A stretch of DNA of 62,474 nt from an uncultured Bacilli bacterium (GTDB lineage Bacteria; Bacillota_I; Bacilli_A; RFN20; CAG-826), in contig CAJOLV010000006.1 of assembly GCA_905235515.1 (NCBI GenBank), forward strand, positions 1 through 62,474, given 5' to 3'. Both the position numbers and the translations under genes were made by a program. Positions 51,360 through 61,663 of this stretch are shown in pieces. Each line of letters begins with the position of its first letter. Within the stretch, counting starts at the first letter, position 1. The notes beneath the pieces are model-generated. The model was not told where the DNA came from. It was given only the letters and a program-made list of their open reading frames with translations, and made no database searches.

Positions 51360-52715
51360 ATGGGTCAAATTGTTAGAGGAAAATGTTTAGATATATCATC
51401 AGAAGGTAAAGGTGTTGCTAAAGTTGGTAAGAACATCTATTTTGTTGATGGCTTGTTTGTTGGTGAAGAAGCTGATATAGAAGTCCTTTATCAAAGAGCG
51501 GGCGTGTATTTTGGCAAAGTCAAAAAACTATACACACTATCAAAAGATAGAATCCAACCAAAATGTAAAGTTTGTACTTCTTGTGGCGGTTGCCAATATC
51601 AACAAATTAATTATCAAACCCAATTGGAATATAAAACCAAAAGAGTGAAAGAAGCTCTCACTAGAATTGGTGGTGTTAAAACAAATGTTTTGCCATGCCT
51701 TGGTATGAATAATCCATATTATTACCGCAACAAAATTCAAATGCCTTATGGCAAAGATAGAAAAGGCAATGTTGTTTACGGCTTCTTTAAAGAAAACTCA
51801 CATGAAATCATCCCTGTTAAAGAATGTGTTATTGAAGATAAAAGAGCGGCATCTATTCTTTGGGATATTAAAGAATTAGTAAAACAGATGAATATCCCTA
51901 CCTATAACGAAGATAATGGGAGAGGTATTTTAAGATATGTCCTTATTAGAACGAGTTATCATTACAAAGAATTAATGGTGGTGCTTGTTACATCAATAAT
52001 GAATTTTCCTGGCCAAAGGAATTTTATTGACGCTTTGGTAAAATTGCATCCAGAGATTACCACCATAGTGGAGAACATTAACAAAAGACACACAAATGTA
52101 ATTCTCGGTAATTCAGAAAAAGTGCTTTATGGACCAGGCTACATTAAAGATAAGATACTTGATTTAACATTCGAAATTAGTGCCTCTAGTTTCTTCCAAG
52201 TGAATCCTGTTCAAGTTGAAAAACTATATCAAAACGCACTTGAATTAATCAAAATTGATGAAAAATCAGTTGTTTTAGATGCCTATTCAGGAGTAGGGAC
52301 GATTGGTTTAATTGCCGCTAAAAATGCCAAAAAAGTTATATCTGTGGAAATTAATAGATCAGCCCACGAGAACGCAAAAGAAAACGCCAAACGTAATGGT
52401 GTTACAAATATTGAGTTCTATTGTGATGATGCCGGACACTTCATTGACAATTATCAAGGAAAGATTGATACAGTAATCATGGATCCACCTAGAAAAGGTA
52501 GTGATGAAAAGTTCTTATCAGTATTGATTAGAAATAGCATAAAACAAATTGTGTATATATCTTGTGACCCAGAAACCTTAGCAAGAGACATCAAATATTT
52601 GTCTTCACACTATGGGGTTACTTATGTCCAACCTGTTGATATGTTTCCAATGACCGCTCACGTTGAAACAATTTTATGCTTATCTTTGATAGGCAACAAA
52701 ACCTCAAAAAACTAA
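51360..52715 (+). CDS. 23S rRNA (uracil-5-)-methyltransferase RumA/RlmD family
   Basis: TRAM-like N-terminus, CKVCTSCGGCQYQQINYQTQL Fe-S motif, SSFFQVNPVQVEKLY, MDPPRKG, YISCDPETLARD. Confidence 0.94.
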   Translation: MGQIVRGKCLDISSEGKGVAKVGKNIYFVDGLFVGEEADIEVLYQRAGVYFGKVKKLYTLSKDRIQPKCKVCTSCGGCQYQQINYQTQLEYKTKRVKEALTRIGGVKTNVLPCLGMNNPYYYRNKIQMPYGKDRKGNVVYGFFKENSHEIIPVKECVIEDKRAASILWDIKELVKQMNIPTYNEDNGRGILRYVLIRTSYHYKELMVVLVTSIMNFPGQRNFIDALVKLHPEITTIVENINKRHTNVILGNSEKVLYGPGYIKDKILDLTFEISASSFFQVNPVQVEKLYQNALELIKIDEKSVVLDAYSGVGTIGLIAAKNAKKVISVEINRSAHENAKENAKRNGVTNIEFYCDDAGHFIDNYQGKIDTVIMDPPRKGSDEKFLSVLIRNSIKQIVYISCDPETLARDIKYLSSHYGVTYVQPVDMFPMTAHVETILCLSLIGNKTSKN

Positions 52716-52806: not shown

Positions 52807-53287
52807 CATATTAGGCAACCTTAAAAATTGTTACGAGCATTGTAAAAGGAGTAATGTCTTTATTGAGTATTTGTTATATAGAATACACAAGGGTCGTCAC
52901 TATGCTTATAACTTCAAAACTAGTGTAATGGAGAACGCTCAACAAAGAATAATAATTCCTTTTTTTCTTAAAAACACTGCAGTTGTTTAACATTTAGCTG
53001 TTTTTTGGTTGAAAAGCTTAAAAACTCAATTAATCCATGTGAAAGTAAATAGCGATAAGTAGCAGTTTTATTGTTTGAAAAAGAGTGCAACAACGCGTCA
53101 ATCTTCAAATAAGTTCTGGGACATTTTCAGGGACAAAATTCAACTATCTAATGTAATGTGTTAAGATAATTTTGCAGCAGGAGCAAGGATATCAAGTTGT
53201 TTCCATTGCGACACCTATGTTGGTTTATCCAAGGAGTGGTGTGCTGCACTTAGCTTAAGTAAATAAAAAGCAGTGAGAGGTTTATGT

Positions 53288-54250
53288 ATGGCTAGAGAAA
53301 TTTTTGATTATAGTAAGTCAAACCCAAACGACTATGAATATTATGGCTTTCATCTAAAAGATGGAAGGTATCATATTGACACAAAGAGACTAAAAAAGCT
53401 TCATTGCGATGGATCTTTTCCTGAAGCTCTTTTTTCAAACCCAAGAAATACACATTATTTTGTTCCGAAGCATAAAAACTATAGTGATTATGCGATAAAT
53501 GTCTTAAGAGAACAACTCAATAGATTAACAAGTGATTGGAACAAAGAATATAAAGATGTAATTAGTAAAATAACAACTCCAAAAGAAGTGATGGAAAATG
53601 TACGAACTGCCGAATTAGCCTATACAACTGATGTTGATGATTTAGATGATATTGCATTTGAATCTTTACGAGCTGGGTTAAGGCGCGAAGCTAAATACAA
53701 TCAGGTTATCAAAAGTATTCATCTTCAATATTTACAGAAAATATTTACCGAATTCTTTAGAACAATCCTTTTAGTTATCAAAGATAGAGGGTATACAGAC
53801 TCAATCGATTTTACATACAAATCATTTTTCTTTTATGTTCAAAATAGGTTTAATGCTGAAACTAAAAGAGCTAACCCGTTGTATAAACTTCCACATTATC
53901 GTTATTTCGACATACTCAATAAGATAGACAATTTTTTAAAGCACAATACAGTCATGTCTTATAACGCTCTTGCAAACAATCCATTTGAAAAAGATGAAAA
54001 AATGAAGAAGTTTCAGGCTAGTTTTGTTTATACAAAAAAAGAAGCGGGGTTTGAATATGAAAATGGCATGTATGCTGGAGATTGGTTAAAAATAGGACCC
54101 ACATTTGTGGATGAGACACTTACTAATCTACAAGAGTTCGCTAATGAATTCTGTGAACTAATGTATGAAGAGAATGCAGATGAAGTTTACTGGAATTCAG
54201 ATGAATCACTTTTAAAAATTCTGAAAGATAATTTCTACGATTTAGTATAA
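53288..54250 (+). CDS. Uncharacterised helical protein, possible HEPN-like
   Basis: ORF 53273..54250; GAGAGG SD before ATG 53288; YFDILNKIDNFLKHNTVMSYNAL motif. Confidence 0.75.
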   Translation: MAREIFDYSKSNPNDYEYYGFHLKDGRYHIDTKRLKKLHCDGSFPEALFSNPRNTHYFVPKHKNYSDYAINVLREQLNRLTSDWNKEYKDVISKITTPKEVMENVRTAELAYTTDVDDLDDIAFESLRAGLRREAKYNQVIKSIHLQYLQKIFTEFFRTILLVIKDRGYTDSIDFTYKSFFFYVQNRFNAETKRANPLYKLPHYRYFDILNKIDNFLKHNTVMSYNALANNPFEKDEKMKKFQASFVYTKKEAGFEYENGMYAGDWLKIGPTFVDETLTNLQEFANEFCELMYEENADEVYWNSDESLLKILKDNFYDLV

Positions 54251-54304: not shown

Positions 54305-54508
54305 ATGAACAGTTGCTACTCTTCCAGTAAAGTTATGGAAGAAATCAAGTGTCGCATTAAAGACAAGTTCAAAAACCAAGAAAACTTTGGTAAAGAACTT
54401 GGTGCGAGTCGCAAAACCGTGAGTCGAATTTTGAATCATGGTACTGACATCTCCACATTCTTCAGAATATGCAAGATACTTGGTATCGACGGAATATCAA
54501 TCGACTGA
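54305..54508 (+). CDS. Small XRE-type HTH regulator (67 aa)
   Basis: GGAGGAGG SD; KNQENFGKELGASRKTVSRILNHGTDISTFFRICKILGID is an XRE HTH pattern. Confidence 0.8.
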   Translation: MNSCYSSSKVMEEIKCRIKDKFKNQENFGKELGASRKTVSRILNHGTDISTFFRICKILGIDGISID

Positions 54509-54582
54509 TATTCCTTTTTTTGTAACCTTTTTAGGGACAAACTCACATTTTATCAGCAGAATTTGCTAAAAATATATAAGTT

Positions 54583-54637: not shown

Positions 54638-55039
54638 ATGAATGTTAAAGTTTATGGTTTAATAGAAGGCCTGATGGTTTGTTGGGATGAAGTTAAAGAT
54701 GCCGCTGTTTACCATGTCCATCTTTTTATTGGTGATTGGAATAGGCGCATGGAAGTAATTAACGGACAGCAAAAAGTTGTTACAGACAAAAAACAAAAAT
54801 TTCAAGAAATTGCTCTCGTAGATGTTGATAGGAATCTTAAATACTATTCTTTTAAGAATTTACCTAGAATTCACGTAAATTTTATGTATAGCATTCATGG
54901 CCGCATTAGAGAAGAAACTGGCTTAGATTATTATTTGTTTGTCGAAGCTGAAGATAGGCAAGGCAAAATAATTGATTCTTCTGATAAAGTGGTGGGAAGA
55001 GTTTCATCGATTGATAATGGTTTTGCCACTGTGGGGTAA
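54638..55039 (+). CDS. FN3-like protein A (133 aa), uncharacterised
   Basis: GAGGG SD; MVCWDEVKDAAVYHVHLF...VDRNLKYYSFKNLP...YLFVEAEDRQGKII; no signal peptide. Confidence 0.7.
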   Translation: MNVKVYGLIEGLMVCWDEVKDAAVYHVHLFIGDWNRRMEVINGQQKVVTDKKQKFQEIALVDVDRNLKYYSFKNLPRIHVNFMYSIHGRIREETGLDYYLFVEAEDRQGKIIDSSDKVVGRVSSIDNGFATVG

Positions 55040-55042
55040 TTT

Positions 55043-56056
55043 ATGAGTTGGAAAAAAGTTAACTTATTTGAGCATCTTGGAAGCTATGTTTTTATGGATG
55101 AATATGGCTTTTGCCATAGTGAGATAAATGGCATTTTTATTAACGATATTAATTTATCTGACCTGTTTGTATATAACAACGATAGCAAAAGATATGAAAG
55201 AATTAGATTTGGAAACAGAGGGAATTGCACCCAATCTATCGCTGATCTCTTTTCTTTGGATATTGCAAAGAGAAAAAAGACTAATCAACCATACTATAAT
55301 TACGGCTATGGTAATGACTACTTTAGTAACGATCAAGCTGTAAGCGTGAAACCTAAGACCATTAAAGTAAATTTAAGAACATTCTACCATACGACTCTTG
55401 GATATAACGGTGGTGGGGCTCAGGAGCAACATGCTGATGATATTATTGAACTTAATTCAGCAAAAGATGTTAGCAAATATTTTTGCTGGTTTGAAGAAGG
55501 TGCTAGCACATCCTCATTCAAAACGACCATTTTGCCTGAACTCAAAGTAGATGACGAATTGTATCTTGTTGGCGTAGGCAAAGTTAAGGTATCGAATCTT
55601 GTTGAATATCCAAACAAAGATGATGTTGTCTGCGAAGCCGTTGATGTAGAAGGTAAAAAGCAAAAGATTAAAATGGAGTCGGAGGTTTTTTGCTTACCAT
55701 ACAACAAAGCTGTTGACGAATATGAAGATGTTGATAAATCGCTTAATGAATTAAAATTGTCACCTTATGTTATACGCAGTAAGGAACAGAACCATATTTA
55801 TAATATTTATTGGAACAAAATAGAGGAAGCAAGCTGTTATCATGTTATTCTCTACAAATATATTGAGTTAAGAAACAGAAGACGTATTTTGAAAATTGCA
55901 GATTATGAAGTCGATAGAAACACTAGCTTTTTATCTTTAGATAAACTTGTAGGTGGAAACTTTATTTTTAAAGTTAAAGCCGAAGATAGAAGTGGAAATA
56001 TAATCGCTGAATCAAGAGGGGCTATTGATGGTGTTCCTCGCGATTTCAAAAAATAG
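55043..56056 (+). CDS. Uncharacterised protein with C-terminal FN3-like domain (FN3-like B)
   Basis: C-terminus YNIYWNKIEEASCYHVILY...YEVDRNTSFLSLDKL...FIFKVKAEDRSGNIIAES; no signal peptide. Confidence 0.72.
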   Translation: MSWKKVNLFEHLGSYVFMDEYGFCHSEINGIFINDINLSDLFVYNNDSKRYERIRFGNRGNCTQSIADLFSLDIAKRKKTNQPYYNYGYGNDYFSNDQAVSVKPKTIKVNLRTFYHTTLGYNGGGAQEQHADDIIELNSAKDVSKYFCWFEEGASTSSFKTTILPELKVDDELYLVGVGKVKVSNLVEYPNKDDVVCEAVDVEGKKQKIKMESEVFCLPYNKAVDEYEDVDKSLNELKLSPYVIRSKEQNHIYNIYWNKIEEASCYHVILYKYIELRNRRRILKIADYEVDRNTSFLSLDKLVGGNFIFKVKAEDRSGNIIAESRGAIDGVPRDFKK

Positions 56057-56065
56057 GAGGTATTT

Positions 56066-56437
56066 ATGCCAGTTGTTCATCCAGAAGCAGGCATCTACAA
56101 CGGATTAGGTGCGGTTAAAACAGAACTTGAAAAGTTGAATTCAAAGGTTGACCAGTTAATAAAAAGCCAAGAACCAGGTCAAATTAAGACCGAATACGCA
56201 AATGGGTTTGAATTAAAAGCCCAAGATAGAGTGGTTTGGTGGACTAAAGTAGATAATGCTGCAAGGTATCGTCTCATTTTAAAGATCAATATTGATGAAG
56301 TTGGTTCTTTAGATTTAGATAGAGAAACTAGATTCTACGTGTTTGATAAAATGCCAAAAGGCATTTATTTCTCGGTTAAAGTAATTGCTGAAGATAGAGA
56401 AGGAAACGAAATTGTTTCTGCATCGATTGGACTTTAG
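56066..56437 (+). CDS. Small protein: coiled-coil N-terminus plus FN3-like domain (FN3-like C)
   Basis: TAGGAGG SD; VVWWTKVDNAARYRLILK...LDLDRETRFYVFDKMPKGIYFSVKVIAEDREGNEIVSAS. Confidence 0.72.
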   Translation: MPVVHPEAGIYNGLGAVKTELEKLNSKVDQLIKSQEPGQIKTEYANGFELKAQDRVVWWTKVDNAARYRLILKINIDEVGSLDLDRETRFYVFDKMPKGIYFSVKVIAEDREGNEIVSASIGL

Positions 56438-56448
56438 GAGGTTCGTTT

Positions 56449-58056
56449 ATGAGATACTACGAAGAAGAATTAGAAACACTAATTAAAGCAGGCGCGAAAG
56501 TGGTAGAAGTTGCTTCTTTCGAATGGGAAAGAGTGCACGGCTTCGCTAATTATGTCGCTGAAGACTTAGGAATCGATTGGTACTCTTGGAGCAGTGTTTC
56601 CGGATTGAAAGTTTGGGATGGGAAAGGATTTAAAGTAATTAATCCTGATTGCCAAACTCTAGCGGCAGTTTTAGATTATTACATTCAAAATGAGAACGAT
56701 ATGCTTCTAGTATTAGAAGATTTCCACCCATATAGTGAAGCTCAAAACCCCGTAAATATTAGATATTTAAGAGAAATGATGAGACCACAAAACTATTCTC
56801 CAAAATATAAGAAGGCCATCATTTTAAGTTCTCCTAACAAATTTGTTCCTGAAGAATTATCTAAGGAACTTCCTGTAATTGAAGTTGAATTACCAGACAG
56901 ACAAACTATTGAAGTTATCGCTAATAGTGTTGTTGAAGAATATAGCGAATATTGTATGGAAAGTGAAATCACTTCTAAACTTTTAGAATCTGCTTTAGGT
57001 TTGACCGTTATGGAAGCAAGATTAGCTTTTGCTAAAGCAATTATTACAAATAGAAAATTAACTGAAGAAGAAATCCCACTCATCATTAGCGAAAAAGAAC
57101 AAATTATTAAGAAGAGCGGACTTCTTGAATATTTCCATCCAAAAGAATTCTTATCCAGCATTGGTGGTCTTGAGAATTTAAAAGAATGGATTCATAGACG
57201 TGGCAATGCTTATAGTGATGAAGCAAAAGACTTTGGTTTAAATACTCCAAGAGGCGTTTTGCTCCTTGGCGTTCCTGGTTGTGGTAAATCATTAACCGCA
57301 AAAGCCATTGCTAACGAATGGAAATTCCCACTATTAAGATTTGACTTAGGCAAAGTCTTTGGTGGTATTGTTGGTGAATCTGAAAGAAACATTAGATATG
57401 CACTCGATGTTGCTAAAACAATCTCTCCATGTGTCCTTTGGATTGATGAAATCGAAAAAGGTCTAAGCGGATCACAAAGTAGTGGTAGAACCGATGGTGG
57501 CACAAGCGCCCGTGTCTTTGGTACATTCTTAACCTGGATGCAAGAAAAGAAAGAGCCCGTCTTCGTTGTTGCCACAGCAAACGACATCAGCTCATTACCA
57601 CCTGAATTGCTCCGTAAAGGTAGATTTGATGAAATTTTCTTTGTTGATTTACCATCCGCAAAAGAAAGAGACAACATCTTCAGAATTCACCTCAAAAACA
57701 AGAACAGAGATGCCGACAAACTCGGTTTAGATATGAATAAGCTCGTTAAATTAAGTGAAGGTTTCTCTGGTGCCGAAATTGAAGAAGTTGTAAATGAAGC
57801 ATTATTCAATGCTTATGCCAATGGACAAAAAGATTTAGAAATGAAAAATCTTGTTGAATGTATTGAAGCAACATCTCCTCTTTCTAGAACAATGGCGGAG
57901 ACAATTGCTAACTTAAGAAAATGGGCAGAACAAAGAGCAAGATTGGCCAGTTCCGAAAAACCAGAAGAAGTCAAAGATCTCGGAGCAGATGTTCCAAGAC
58001 TTCAACAAGAGTATAAGAATCCATTTATAGCTAAGAAACACGATGATAAGCAATAA
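56449..58056 (+). CDS. AAA+ ATPase, Ycf46-like
   Basis: Walker A GVPGCGKS (57268-57291), Walker [38 protein letters not shown]; degenerate N-terminal AAA-like half [10 protein letters not shown]...[32 protein letters not shown]. Confidence 0.9.
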
Positions 58057-59899
58057 GCTCGTTACAATTGTCAAAGAGAATCAATTTGATAAAGGTTGGA
58101 CGATATTTTCTCCTGCCTCTTTTGAAATTGAAAGAAATTGGCAATTCAAAAAAGTTGATTTATCAAACGTTGTGAAATTAATTACCTTTTCCACTCAGGT
58201 TAATTTAATCTTGTCTGATGCTTGCCTTCCTTCAAGATTGATTAGCGAATTGGAATGGTCTAACAAATATATAAAAATTAACATAGTTGCTAAAAGCAAG
58301 GACATAGTCGAAAGGTACAAAAATATATCTTTTAATTCGTACAAAATTGATGAGTCATTAAACATCAATTACATCGGAATCACTGGTAAAAATAATGGAT
58401 ATTTCATGCTGGGCGCCGATTTATGTGAGATTGATGAATCTATCGAAAATATTTACTTTAACCCAAAAAAGAAAAGCGAGAAAAGCTCATCTTTAGAAAA
58501 GGCTAAAATGCTTATTCTTTGCAATAGTGGTAAGCACATAGACTTCAACAACGTTATCTCTTTGGCTGAAAAATATGGCGCAAAATGCCGTTATGTTATT
58601 TGCAGTAGATATTTTGATAGGGCCGCTTATGATTTTGCAAAGGACAACAGTATTGAATTATTTATTTCTAACTATGTTGATAATGTTGTTCTTGTTATTA
58701 ATGCAGATAATTCTATTAGCAGGATATCGGTTTTAAATGATGGATATATTGTTTTATATCCCATTGAAAGAATAAGTAACTATGTTGGCGATCTTTATAA
58801 AAATTTGTTTTTAAAAGACACAATCGGAGTGGATAAAATCCCCTCTGGTGTTTATTCTTGCTTCAATGGCAAAAATGAACAATTAAATATAGTCGATGCC
58901 GTTACTATAAAGAAGGATGTCGCTATAAACGAAATGTCTGATTTTGTCAAAGAAAGCTTTGATAAATCAATAACTGAAAAGCACAACGAATACTCCAATA
59001 AAGGGAGGATGACACAATATTTATTCACTTTAATTCCTCCTCTTTTTGATTCTTCCTACAAGGAATCAACAATTTACGCTCCAATCCATGAATTTAGTTC
59101 TGAGTGGTTGGCGCTCAATAAAATTAAGTTTGATCGAATTGTAAGAGATTACCGCGAATTCATGAACAAGGATTCCAAGTTAATATCGTTCATTGAATTC
59201 TCCAAGGAGTTTACTGGCCAGTTGGAAAAAATGGTTAATAAATGCTTTTATAAAGGCTATTATTCAAAAATAGAAGAAGCAATTGATATTTTTCAACAGT
59301 ATCAAAGTAATCTATTAGATGACTGTTTGTTTATGTTTGATGAAGTCAATTCTGAAAGTTCAGGCACAAAGTTCGATAAATTCGATGTCGAGATTGAAGG
59401 GTATAGGAAGACAATTGCTGAAAAAGAAGCCCTTGTATTTGTTGGAACCGATGTTTTGAGCAACAAGAGAAGAATAGAAATTCTTAATAAGAAAATTAAT
59501 GATTTATTAGCTTTAAAAGAAAAATTTGAAGTCAGCGCATCTTCGCGTTCCGACAAGGAAGCTGAATCATTTATCAATTATTGTAAGAAACTTATTAATG
59601 AGGTAACAAAATCATCTTTGGATGATGGTGATTCTATCGGTAAGATCGTTAACACGAGCGAAAAGTCCAAGTCGATTAAATTGAATAATTTTGTTTCCAA
59701 ATACTTAAAAGAAATTAGTGATTATGTTTTCAATTGTTTATCTTGCTTACAAAAGATGAAAGAAGTTAATATCCCAGAAGAATACCCTGTTTATGAGAAA
59801 GATGGTCAAAAATACATTGTTATAGATGATCTGAGCGAATTTGATGCCACTAAAAGCTTGCGTGAAAAATTTTCACTCAAGTGTTTGGCAAGGAGGTAG
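58043..59899 (+). CDS. Uncharacterised 618-aa protein, coiled-coil C-terminus
   Basis: Overlaps the AAA+ gene by 14 nt; intact ORF; no family recognised. Confidence 0.75.
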   Translation: MISNKLVTIVKENQFDKGWTIFSPASFEIERNWQFKKVDLSNVVKLITFSTQVNLILSDACLPSRLISELEWSNKYIKINIVAKSKDIVERYKNISFNSYKIDESLNINYIGITGKNNGYFMLGADLCEIDESIENIYFNPKKKSEKSSSLEKAKMLILCNSGKHIDFNNVISLAEKYGAKCRYVICSRYFDRAAYDFAKDNSIELFISNYVDNVVLVINADNSISRISVLNDGYIVLYPIERISNYVGDLYKNLFLKDTIGVDKIPSGVYSCFNGKNEQLNIVDAVTIKKDVAINEMSDFVKESFDKSITEKHNEYSNKGRMTQYLFTLIPPLFDSSYKESTIYAPIHEFSSEWLALNKIKFDRIVRDYREFMNKDSKLISFIEFSKEFTGQLEKMVNKCFYKGYYSKIEEAIDIFQQYQSNLLDDCLFMFDEVNSESSGTKFDKFDVEIEGYRKTIAEKEALVFVGTDVLSNKRRIEILNKKINDLLALKEKFEVSASSRSDKEAESFINYCKKLINEVTKSSLDDGDSIGKIVNTSEKSKSIKLNNFVSKYLKEISDYVFNCLSCLQKMKEVNIPEEYPVYEKDGQKYIVIDDLSEFDATKSLREKFSLKCLARR

Positions 59900-59902
59900 A
59901 GC

Positions 59903-60640
59903 ATGAGCTGTCAAAGAACTGTTAAAACTTTTGAGACCGTTGAAGTCAAAATTGATACATGCAACAAGAAAGAGTTAGAGGAATTAGAGCAAAGCATAAT
60001 TTCTTCAACAAATCAAAAATTAGAAAAACTTAATATTTTGATTAAGAATTGCGATATTTATTCCAATGGTAACTGCATCCTAGTTCATGATAGATTCAAC
60101 ATCTGCTCTAGCCTAAAAGAAGTAGCTGAGGCTTTTGGTCTTGAGTGTGAATTAGTGGATTGTTCCTTAAAAGGAAAAACATATTTAATTTCAGACCAAT
60201 TACTGCATGTTCTTAAACAAATAGATGTTCAATTTAATTTTGGTTCAAATGTCTCTAACAAAGATTTAGTTGATGAAATAGAAGACATTATGGGTGAATT
60301 TGGAACTACGAAAATTGATCCAGACATTTTAGAAATGGTTCGTAATATAAAAAAGAATGGTGTTTATACGACCAGTAAGACCAGAGAAGTATCACAAACA
60401 TTCTACGATGGTAGATTAATTGGTCACTCCGAAGGCGAGTGGTCTACTGATGAGAATGTGATTAGGGACAGACTTTTAAAGATGTCTAAAGACGCCGAAA
60501 GTGTTGTCAAGAAGACAAATATGAATTTGAGAGATGGTACGACAAAGTTAATTTATACAAGAGCAAAACAAATGGGATATGCGGTTCAAGAAGTCAAAAA
60601 AGGAACCCAAACGCAATTAGTGTTAGTGAGGTACGAATAA
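59903..60640 (+). CDS. Ycf35/DUF1257-like protein
   Basis: AAGGAGG SD; C-terminus TTKLIYTRAKQMGYAVQEVKKGTQTQLVLVRYE resembles the Ycf35 C-terminus; next to a DUF2997-like gene. Confidence 0.6.
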   Translation: MSCQRTVKTFETVEVKIDTCNKKELEELEQSIISSTNQKLEKLNILIKNCDIYSNGNCILVHDRFNICSSLKEVAEAFGLECELVDCSLKGKTYLISDQLLHVLKQIDVQFNFGSNVSNKDLVDEIEDIMGEFGTTKIDPDILEMVRNIKKNGVYTTSKTREVSQTFYDGRLIGHSEGEWSTDENVIRDRLLKMSKDAESVVKKTNMNLRDGTTKLIYTRAKQMGYAVQEVKKGTQTQLVLVRYE

Positions 60641-60840
60641 TGCCAGAGAAAAAAATTGTTGTAAATATTAGTGATACCGGCGAAATCGATGCCGAAACTT
60701 TCAATATGGAAGGCACTGAGTGCTTAGAAGAATTGGATAAACTTTTAAAGGATTTGGCTCTTGAATCGAAAACAACCAAAAAAGAAGATTTCTTTAGAAA
60801 TTCCACAAAAGTCGAAAATACAATTAAAGTTAAAAAATGA
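60640..60840 (+). CDS. DUF2997-like small protein (66 aa)
   Basis: KKIVVNISDTGEIDAETFNMEGTECLEELDKLLKDL; overlaps both neighbouring genes by 1-4 nt. Confidence 0.65.
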   Translation: MPEKKIVVNISDTGEIDAETFNMEGTECLEELDKLLKDLALESKTTKKEDFFRNSTKVENTIKVKK

Positions 60841-61409
60841 TTAGCATTCAAAGAATGATGCTTGTCGAAAATGAGCATCTCTACGGTCCCGGAAAAAGGT
60901 TGTTAATTTATTTAAAAGGCTGTTCCATACATTGCGAAGGATGCATTAATCCTCATTTATGGTCTTTTGAAGGCGGGACCCCTCTGTCATCTGAAGAAAT
61001 AATGAAAATTATTGCAGATAACGATCTCGATGGCATTACTCTTCATGGTGGAGAGCCATTGGATCAAGCAGACGATTTGCTTCAAATAGTTAAAGACATT
61101 AAATCAAACAATAAAACAGTTATTTTGTTTACTGGATATATAAAAAAAGAAATCAGCGGCAATAGACTCAAGGTATGGAACTTGGCCGACATTGTAGTGG
61201 CTGGAAGGTTCAAATTGAAAAAAAGAAATGTTTATCTTCAATTTAGAGGATCTACCAATCAAAAGGTCTATATGCACAAAGGCAAATATAAAGATTATAA
61301 ATTGAAAGATGGATATACCGCCGCAATGTTCACAATTGGTGAAAATGGCGAGATGGACGTCAACGGCTTTTTAACAGAAGACATCGCAGAATTGATGAAA
61401 ATTAAATAA
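60837..61409 (+). CDS. Radical SAM, 4Fe-4S single-cluster (NrdG/activase-like) protein
   Basis: KGCSIHCEGCINP (CxxxCxxC, 60921-60944), LDGITLHGGEPLDQADDL. Confidence 0.88.
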   Translation: MISIQRMMLVENEHLYGPGKRLLIYLKGCSIHCEGCINPHLWSFEGGTPLSSEEIMKIIADNDLDGITLHGGEPLDQADDLLQIVKDIKSNNKTVILFTGYIKKEISGNRLKVWNLADIVVAGRFKLKKRNVYLQFRGSTNQKVYMHKGKYKDYKLKDGYTAAMFTIGENGEMDVNGFLTEDIAELMKIK

Positions 61410-61483: not shown

Positions 61484-61663
61484 ATGGAAATTGCACCAGT
61501 ATTTACAGTTTTAGGTATTATTAATACAGTTATTAGTGTAATCGCATGTCCGATTATCGCAGGACACAAAAACAGAAGCGTGGCTGGATGGATCTTCGGG
61601 GGCTTATTTCTAGGCCTTATTGGATTAATCATTGTGGCTTGCCTTCCAAGCAAAGATTATTAA
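61484..61663 (+). CDS. Small two-TM membrane protein (59 aa)
   Basis: Hand-translated MEIAPVFTVLGIINTVISVIACPIIAGHKNRSVAGWIFGGLFLGLIGLIIVACLPSKDY; SD GAGAGG; below the track length cutoff. Confidence 0.75.
   Translation: MEIAPVFTVLGIINTVISVIACPIIAGHKNRSVAGWIFGGLFLGLIGLIIVACLPSKDY

Follow-up and report, generated by a model that had tools for sequence, protein, structure and literature searches.

In the GTPase-centric DO-GTPase/GAP1-N2 systems (Kaur et al. 2020, PMC7159879), a constant NTPase core lies beside rapidly evolving FNIII proteins, the proposed invader sensor; the variable FNIII domains are inferred to sense the invader directly. The vWA-MoxR "FtsH ternary" systems (PMC7159879), likewise mobile, include an AAA+ ATPase and a radical SAM gene. 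The Ycf46/DUF1257/DUF2997 clusters, found in cyanobacteria, Bacillus, and on actinobacterial plasmids, encode an AAA+ ATPase together with DUF2997 and DUF1257-like proteins, frequently accompanied by a radical SAM protein of the 4Fe-4S type. In DGR-diversified proteins (FGS/C-type lectin, Ig-fold), hypervariation is local to the surface loops of a stable fold.

The window considered here, a 62,474-nucleotide stretch of DNA from an uncultured Bacilli bacterium, contains a gene cluster that resembles each of these in part. Like the GTPase-centric systems, it has a variable FN3 component beside a constant NTPase core, in mobile neighbourhoods; unlike them, its core is a Ycf46-like AAA+ protein accompanied by radical SAM, DUF1257-like, and DUF2997 proteins, and it encodes three separate FN3 proteins in place of one FNIII repeat protein. 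Pfam recognises no GTPase family in any cluster protein, and DO-GTPase/GAP1 was not recognised with a set of models that lacks one for GAP1. Nor does Pfam find the MoxR or vWA genes of the vWA-MoxR systems. Those systems have two FtsH-type AAA+ domains, the first inactive; in the AAA+ protein here, the N- and C-terminal regions give a collinear but weak alignment (E 0.044). Because these defining genes were not recognised, the cluster is classed as working like the GTPase- and NTPase-centred systems and not as a member of them. The Ycf46/DUF1257/DUF2997 clusters have AAA proteins 38-47% identical to this one, without the FN3 proteins or two others described below, p618 and up325. PADLOC 2.0 returns only generic AAA similarity (IetA, TRIP13) and nothing for the Fn proteins, p618, or up325; IetAS, which pairs a full-length IetA ATPase with the serine protease IetS, was rejected, since IetA scores 100.9 bits against a cut-off of 510, over the AAA domain only, and no protease gene was recognised. 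A literature search found no work on this cluster.

Three FN3-fold proteins and their partners

The Fn genes lie one after another on the forward strand, as do all of the cluster genes described here. FnA (54638..55039; 133 aa) consists of one FN3-like domain, in which a long hairpin is inserted at CC' and the EF loop is also long. FnB (55043..56056; 337 aa) has an N-terminal region of about 230 aa and unknown fold, followed by an FN3-like domain that takes up roughly the final 100 residues. FnC (56066..56437; 123 aa) has a short helix, likely a coiled coil, and then an FN3-like domain. A sequence-only reading had held that these consecutive proteins share an FN3-like signature and carry one module in three architectures, and both points stand. 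Local alignments score 78 for A-B (z 8.8), 96 for B-C (z 14.2), and 61 for A-C (z 6.7), values reached in 0 of 1000 shuffles; the FnB N-terminal 230 aa show no such similarity to FnA or FnC in the same test. A back-translated pattern of the A-E-D-[RS]-x-x-G-[KN] type occurs three times in the 1.2-Mb assembly, always within the Fn genes (the reversed control pattern, not at all), and the Fn domain profile matches the genome at these three places only. By these alignments, the three domains are homologous. Reading of all three N-termini revealed no signal-peptide-like hydrophobic stretch, also as the earlier reading had it, and a cytoplasmic location is supported.

When all PDB sequences are searched with the Fn domain profile, built from 13 domains, FN3 chains of titin and fibronectin come out on top (best E 6.5e-4). 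Since A, B, and C occupy one reading frame, they were modelled together as a single AlphaFold2 chain in which Gly replaces each of the two stops; no fusion is claimed. The model contains the beta-sandwich strand pattern in all three proteins. Its mean pLDDT is 68: domain cores are mostly 75-94, and the linkers and the FnC helix (residues 490-509 of the concatenated chain) are low. The best Foldseek matches in the PDB are fibronectin fragments (E 5e-9), with global TM-scores that are low because of the artificial linking, and with the thinnest alignment for FnC. Features characteristic of FN3 were found throughout: a seven-strand sandwich, core Trp (strand B) and Tyr (strands C and F), and a YxVxAxNxxG-like F strand and FG turn. 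The Fn proteins are divergent, matching no Pfam FN3 model at E<=1, so the claim is one of fold membership, not Pfam-family membership; no family in Pfam, PADLOC, NCBIfam, or PHROG covers them.

What, then, is the signature? Aligned by eye with fibronectin, its W lies in strand B, Y in strand C, and DRN in the DE loop; YxFxVxAEDRxG forms strand F and the FG turn. Most of AEDRxG is thus what the FN3 consensus has in these two places, and W..A..Y belongs to the FN3 core, so that much of the shared signature is fold and not a tag. The earlier suggestion that the DR...AEDRxG face could be the recognition tag for the AAA+ protein is therefore rejected as stated, in the sense of a pure tag. In the main, the signature is the FN3 fold, to which is added a DE/FG pole of unusual conservation: the conserved DRN/ERN of the DE loop and DR of the FG loop are out of the ordinary, and could form a shared docking pole.

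Upstream of the Fn genes, in all five loci with a full Fn set, is up325 (53273..54250; 325 aa, unknown fold). Its homologues in L013, L036, L037, and L065 are 30-79% identical and occupy the same place; it has no Pfam, PADLOC, or NCBIfam family. Between up325 and FnA is a small Cro/CI-like HTH regulator (54305..54508), called from weak HTH/repressor matches. An intrinsic terminator-like hairpin with a T run (54491-54514) at its 3' end separates it from the Fn operon, and the HTH gene probably forms its own transcript. HTH genes lie upstream also in L036, L065, L017, and L038.

Downstream is the Ycf46-like AAA+ ATPase (56449..58056; Pfam AAA 4.4e-32, phrog_8638 2e-145), with intact Walker A (GVPGCGKS) and Walker B (VLWIDE) motifs and a conserved N-terminal region. 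It is the slowest protein of the cluster: compared with L013, from another genus, it is 98.7% identical in amino acids and 71.5% at fourfold sites, and by this comparison is under very strong purifying selection. The next gene encodes p618 (58043..59899; 618 aa), for which AlphaFold2 and Foldseek indicate a PLD-like fold followed by a long helical region, with polyphosphate kinase, TrmBL2, and Zucchini as nearest structures. It is among the fastest cluster proteins (71% compared with L013), and as sole query against the genome contigs it gave no match. An active PLD nuclease was considered and rejected: p618 has no HKD motif, and HxK(x)4D is absent from six homologues. From its modelled fold, p618 is a probable scaffold.

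The remaining genes encode a DUF1257/Ycf35-like protein (59903..60640), a DUF2997 protein (60640..60840; PF11211 3.3e-6, above cut-off), and an NrdG-like radical SAM protein (60837..61409; CxxxCxxC, PF13353 5.3e-34; 118.6 bits against TIGR02491, just under the cut-off of 126.1). The DUF1257-like protein has a C-terminal R-A-x-x-x-G-Y and LVLVR region and no Pfam match; the call is based on a weak profile match, over 25 columns, to annotated DUF1257 and related proteins, along with cluster position. One Cys (Gx(2)C) is kept in the DUF2997 homologues, and M-S-C starts all type-1 DUF1257-like proteins (type 1 being the kind of cluster in the window); as conserved sequence features, these are possible radical SAM or metal sites. 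A 59-aa membrane protein, 93% identical between two genera, follows the radical SAM gene (window 61484-61663; L014:1028-1282). No recognisable killing enzyme is encoded in the type-1 cluster.

Recurrence, mobility, and sister clusters

FnA, FnB, and FnC each recur in five systems, in the orders ABC, BAAC, and BCA. Full homologous clusters are present in L013 (same family as the window, another genus) and in L036 and L037, which come from two other families and are almost the same as one another; one more is split between the contigs L065 and L021, which overlap at their ends inside FnA. The Fn genes directly adjoin the AAA gene in the window and in L013, L036, L037, L021, and L066. A tree groups the Fn domains by kind, with three label changes compared with 10.4 in shuffles. 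Together with recurrence in five systems, this indicates three lasting kinds of protein and not fresh duplicates; the G747 FnC sits on a long branch with FnB, and its assignment is founded on its helix-plus-domain layout.

The profile search that the sequence-only reading had called for, extended to a sample of 395 genomes of the class, found the Fn domain and the type-1 AAA protein in the same three genomes only, with no Fn domain in another context or fusion; toxic or enzymatic fusions, also raised there as a check, were found in no locus. Two loci depart from the standard layout. L006 (G053) has the type-1 core without Fn genes, and L066/L019 has about eight FnB-type copies before the AAA gene (L066:3019-13022), some of them broken and one a double-length fusion, with an in-frame stop in the AAA frame. 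Given the rarity of type-1 systems, sampling is thin.

Nearly identical systems (AAA 99.6%) in two families, represented by G325 and G399, show that the cluster is mobile. Scans of viral contigs, phages, and plasmids, in which A3 is too divergent for a pattern scan, revealed no Fn homologue and no type-1 cluster. Plasmids of Rhodococcus, Bacillus, cyanobacteria, and Treponema do carry the AAA/DUF2997/DUF1257/radical SAM set, whole or in part, without Fn genes. In several close relatives (L069, L070, L072), the contig ends just after rlmD, which in the window is at 51360-52715, and a sister cluster in G133 (L017) likewise follows an rlmD gene. This suggests an insertion hotspot.

These sister clusters, here called type 2, are found in L015, L017, L038, and L039, and have an AAA protein (48-50% identical), radical SAM, DUF2997, a protein in the DUF1257 position, and an HTH gene upstream. 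In place of up325 and the Fn proteins they encode an SF1 helicase and proteins of 501 and 448 aa. The 448-aa protein matches p618 weakly by profile (P 0.0028), and on that basis the two may be related. Close to the C-terminus of the 501-aa protein (L017:9476-10978; L038:13000-14499; L015:7297-8793) is an invariant FHDRYL motif, in which it resembles PLD-family nucleases.

Defence genes are recurrent neighbours. In G400 (L038:1-19001), the type-2 AAA/helicase/DUF2997/radical SAM cluster is flanked by a Wadjet JetABCD operon and a TmtA gene, and is a candidate for an undescribed defence system of its own. Another type-2 cluster adjoins genes read as serine recombinases. Among the type-1 loci, L036 adjoins two GmrSD-type genes and a PDC-S39 gene, and L013 a Schlafen AlbA_2 gene.

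Variation in the FnA loops

FnA is the most variable of the three Fn proteins, and its variation is local. The L036 and L037 systems differ by two amino acids in AAA, none in radical SAM, and one in the DUF1257-like protein. By contrast, their FnA copies differ mainly in the CC' loop: over both copies, codons with an amino-acid change number 9/60 in the CC' and EF loops versus 2/195 in the core (p 5e-5, a descriptive value, as are all of the loop p-values, because the loops were picked after the first difference had been seen); silent changes in FnA show no loop bias (p 0.49). In the CC' loop of FnA2, four adjacent codons differ by six bases, and 4/4 change the amino acid; FnA1 has a 15-aa length change at the same loop. 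Between FnA of the window and that of L013, it is the EF loop that has more than its share of changes (loops 16/38, core 22/95, p 0.026); A1 and A2 within L036 likewise show a loop excess (p 0.003). The loop test draws for the most part on a single pair of metagenome-assembled systems, L036 and L037. Silent changes are also more frequent in FnA than in the core (p 1e-4), so that part of the loop variation is accounted for by a segment that is older or was exchanged.

The CC' and EF loops form one pole of an FN3 domain, opposite the DE/FG pole. Local hypervariation on a stable fold is what FnA has in common with the DGR-diversified proteins; diversification by a DGR was rejected for the cluster here, no reverse transcriptase having been found in the (incomplete) assemblies of four host genomes, G000, G160, G325, and G399.

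A putative defence role and its alternatives

We place at roughly even odds (about 0.5) the reading that the Fn proteins are FN3-fold recognition or adaptor subunits of an uncharacterised, mobile, AAA+-centred defence (conflict) system. FnB and FnC would be fairly constant subunits, docking through the conserved pole (DRN in the DE loop, AEDRxG in the FG loop) onto a core of AAA+ and p618. FnA would bind a changing, invader-derived protein through the variable CC' and EF loops at its opposite pole; once this target is bound, the AAA+ protein might unfold or remodel it, or might set an effector free, and the radical SAM/DUF1257/DUF2997 set might modify a component. The putative defence role is based on location beside known defence genes. 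By analogy, the pattern of NTPase-centred conflict systems (PMC7159879) is matched in several respects: the AAA+ core is constant and modules are swapped, the cluster is mobile and has defence genes as neighbours, and the FN3 protein is non-enzymatic, with variable loops. Against the defence reading are the lack of a recognisable killing enzyme, the G053 type-1 core without Fn genes, the AAA and radical SAM genes amid VgrG and baseplate genes on a Treponema plasmid, and the AAA/DUF1257/DUF2997 genes of cyanobacteria, for which no role in defence is established.

A bolder, more doubtful version makes the cluster an undescribed immune system with antibody-like intracellular recognition modules. 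All three FN3 proteins would share a docking pole for the AAA+/radical SAM machinery, FnA would display hypervariable loops at one pole, and specificity would change through replacement of loop patches and tandem Fn duplication, with no retroelement.

The cyanobacterial clusters bring up an unlikely alternative, in which the module serves stress or metabolism, through control of protein quality or radical-based modification, and the FN3 proteins are its general adaptors. The AAA/DUF1257/DUF2997 genes lie beside Hsp70/GrpE on a Pseudanabaena plasmid, and the very strong purifying selection on AAA would fit such a role; the patchy, mobile distribution, the sister cluster within a defence island, and the rapid change of FnA and p618 do not. 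Slightly less probable is that the Fn proteins are themselves substrates or effectors, with a toxin-like N-terminal region of FnB held by FnA and FnC until the AAA+ protein separates them. That region, of unknown fold and more variable than the FN3 part of FnB, is compatible with this, as is the tandem expansion of FnB in L066; yet no catalytic family was recognised in it, it is not swapped between loci as polymorphic effectors usually are, and some of the expanded copies are broken.

Least probable, finally, is that the Fn proteins are structural or assembly subunits, resembling parts of a tail, fibre, or injection apparatus, which the AAA+ protein puts together as an assembly chaperone. Phage tail proteins often contain FN3 domains, and on the Treponema succinifaciens plasmid (L041:8345-12569) a related AAA+ gene (47%) and a radical SAM gene lie within a contractile injection system, with VgrG-like genes on one side and baseplate V genes on the other. 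That locus, however, has no Fn genes by profile, and in the surroundings of the Fn-bearing clusters nothing was recognised as a sheath, tube, or baseplate gene; in PHROGs, FnA and FnB have no match, and FnC only a marginal one, to a DNA methyltransferase (E 0.03).

If the defence reading is right, the NTPase-driven conflict systems would be joined by a class centred on AAA+ and radical SAM, and the short list of antibody-like bacterial recognition modules by an FN3-based sensor with variable loops. Moreover, the widespread Ycf46/DUF1257/DUF2997/radical SAM set, for which neither the family libraries searched nor the literature found offers an explanation, would gain its first functional lead.
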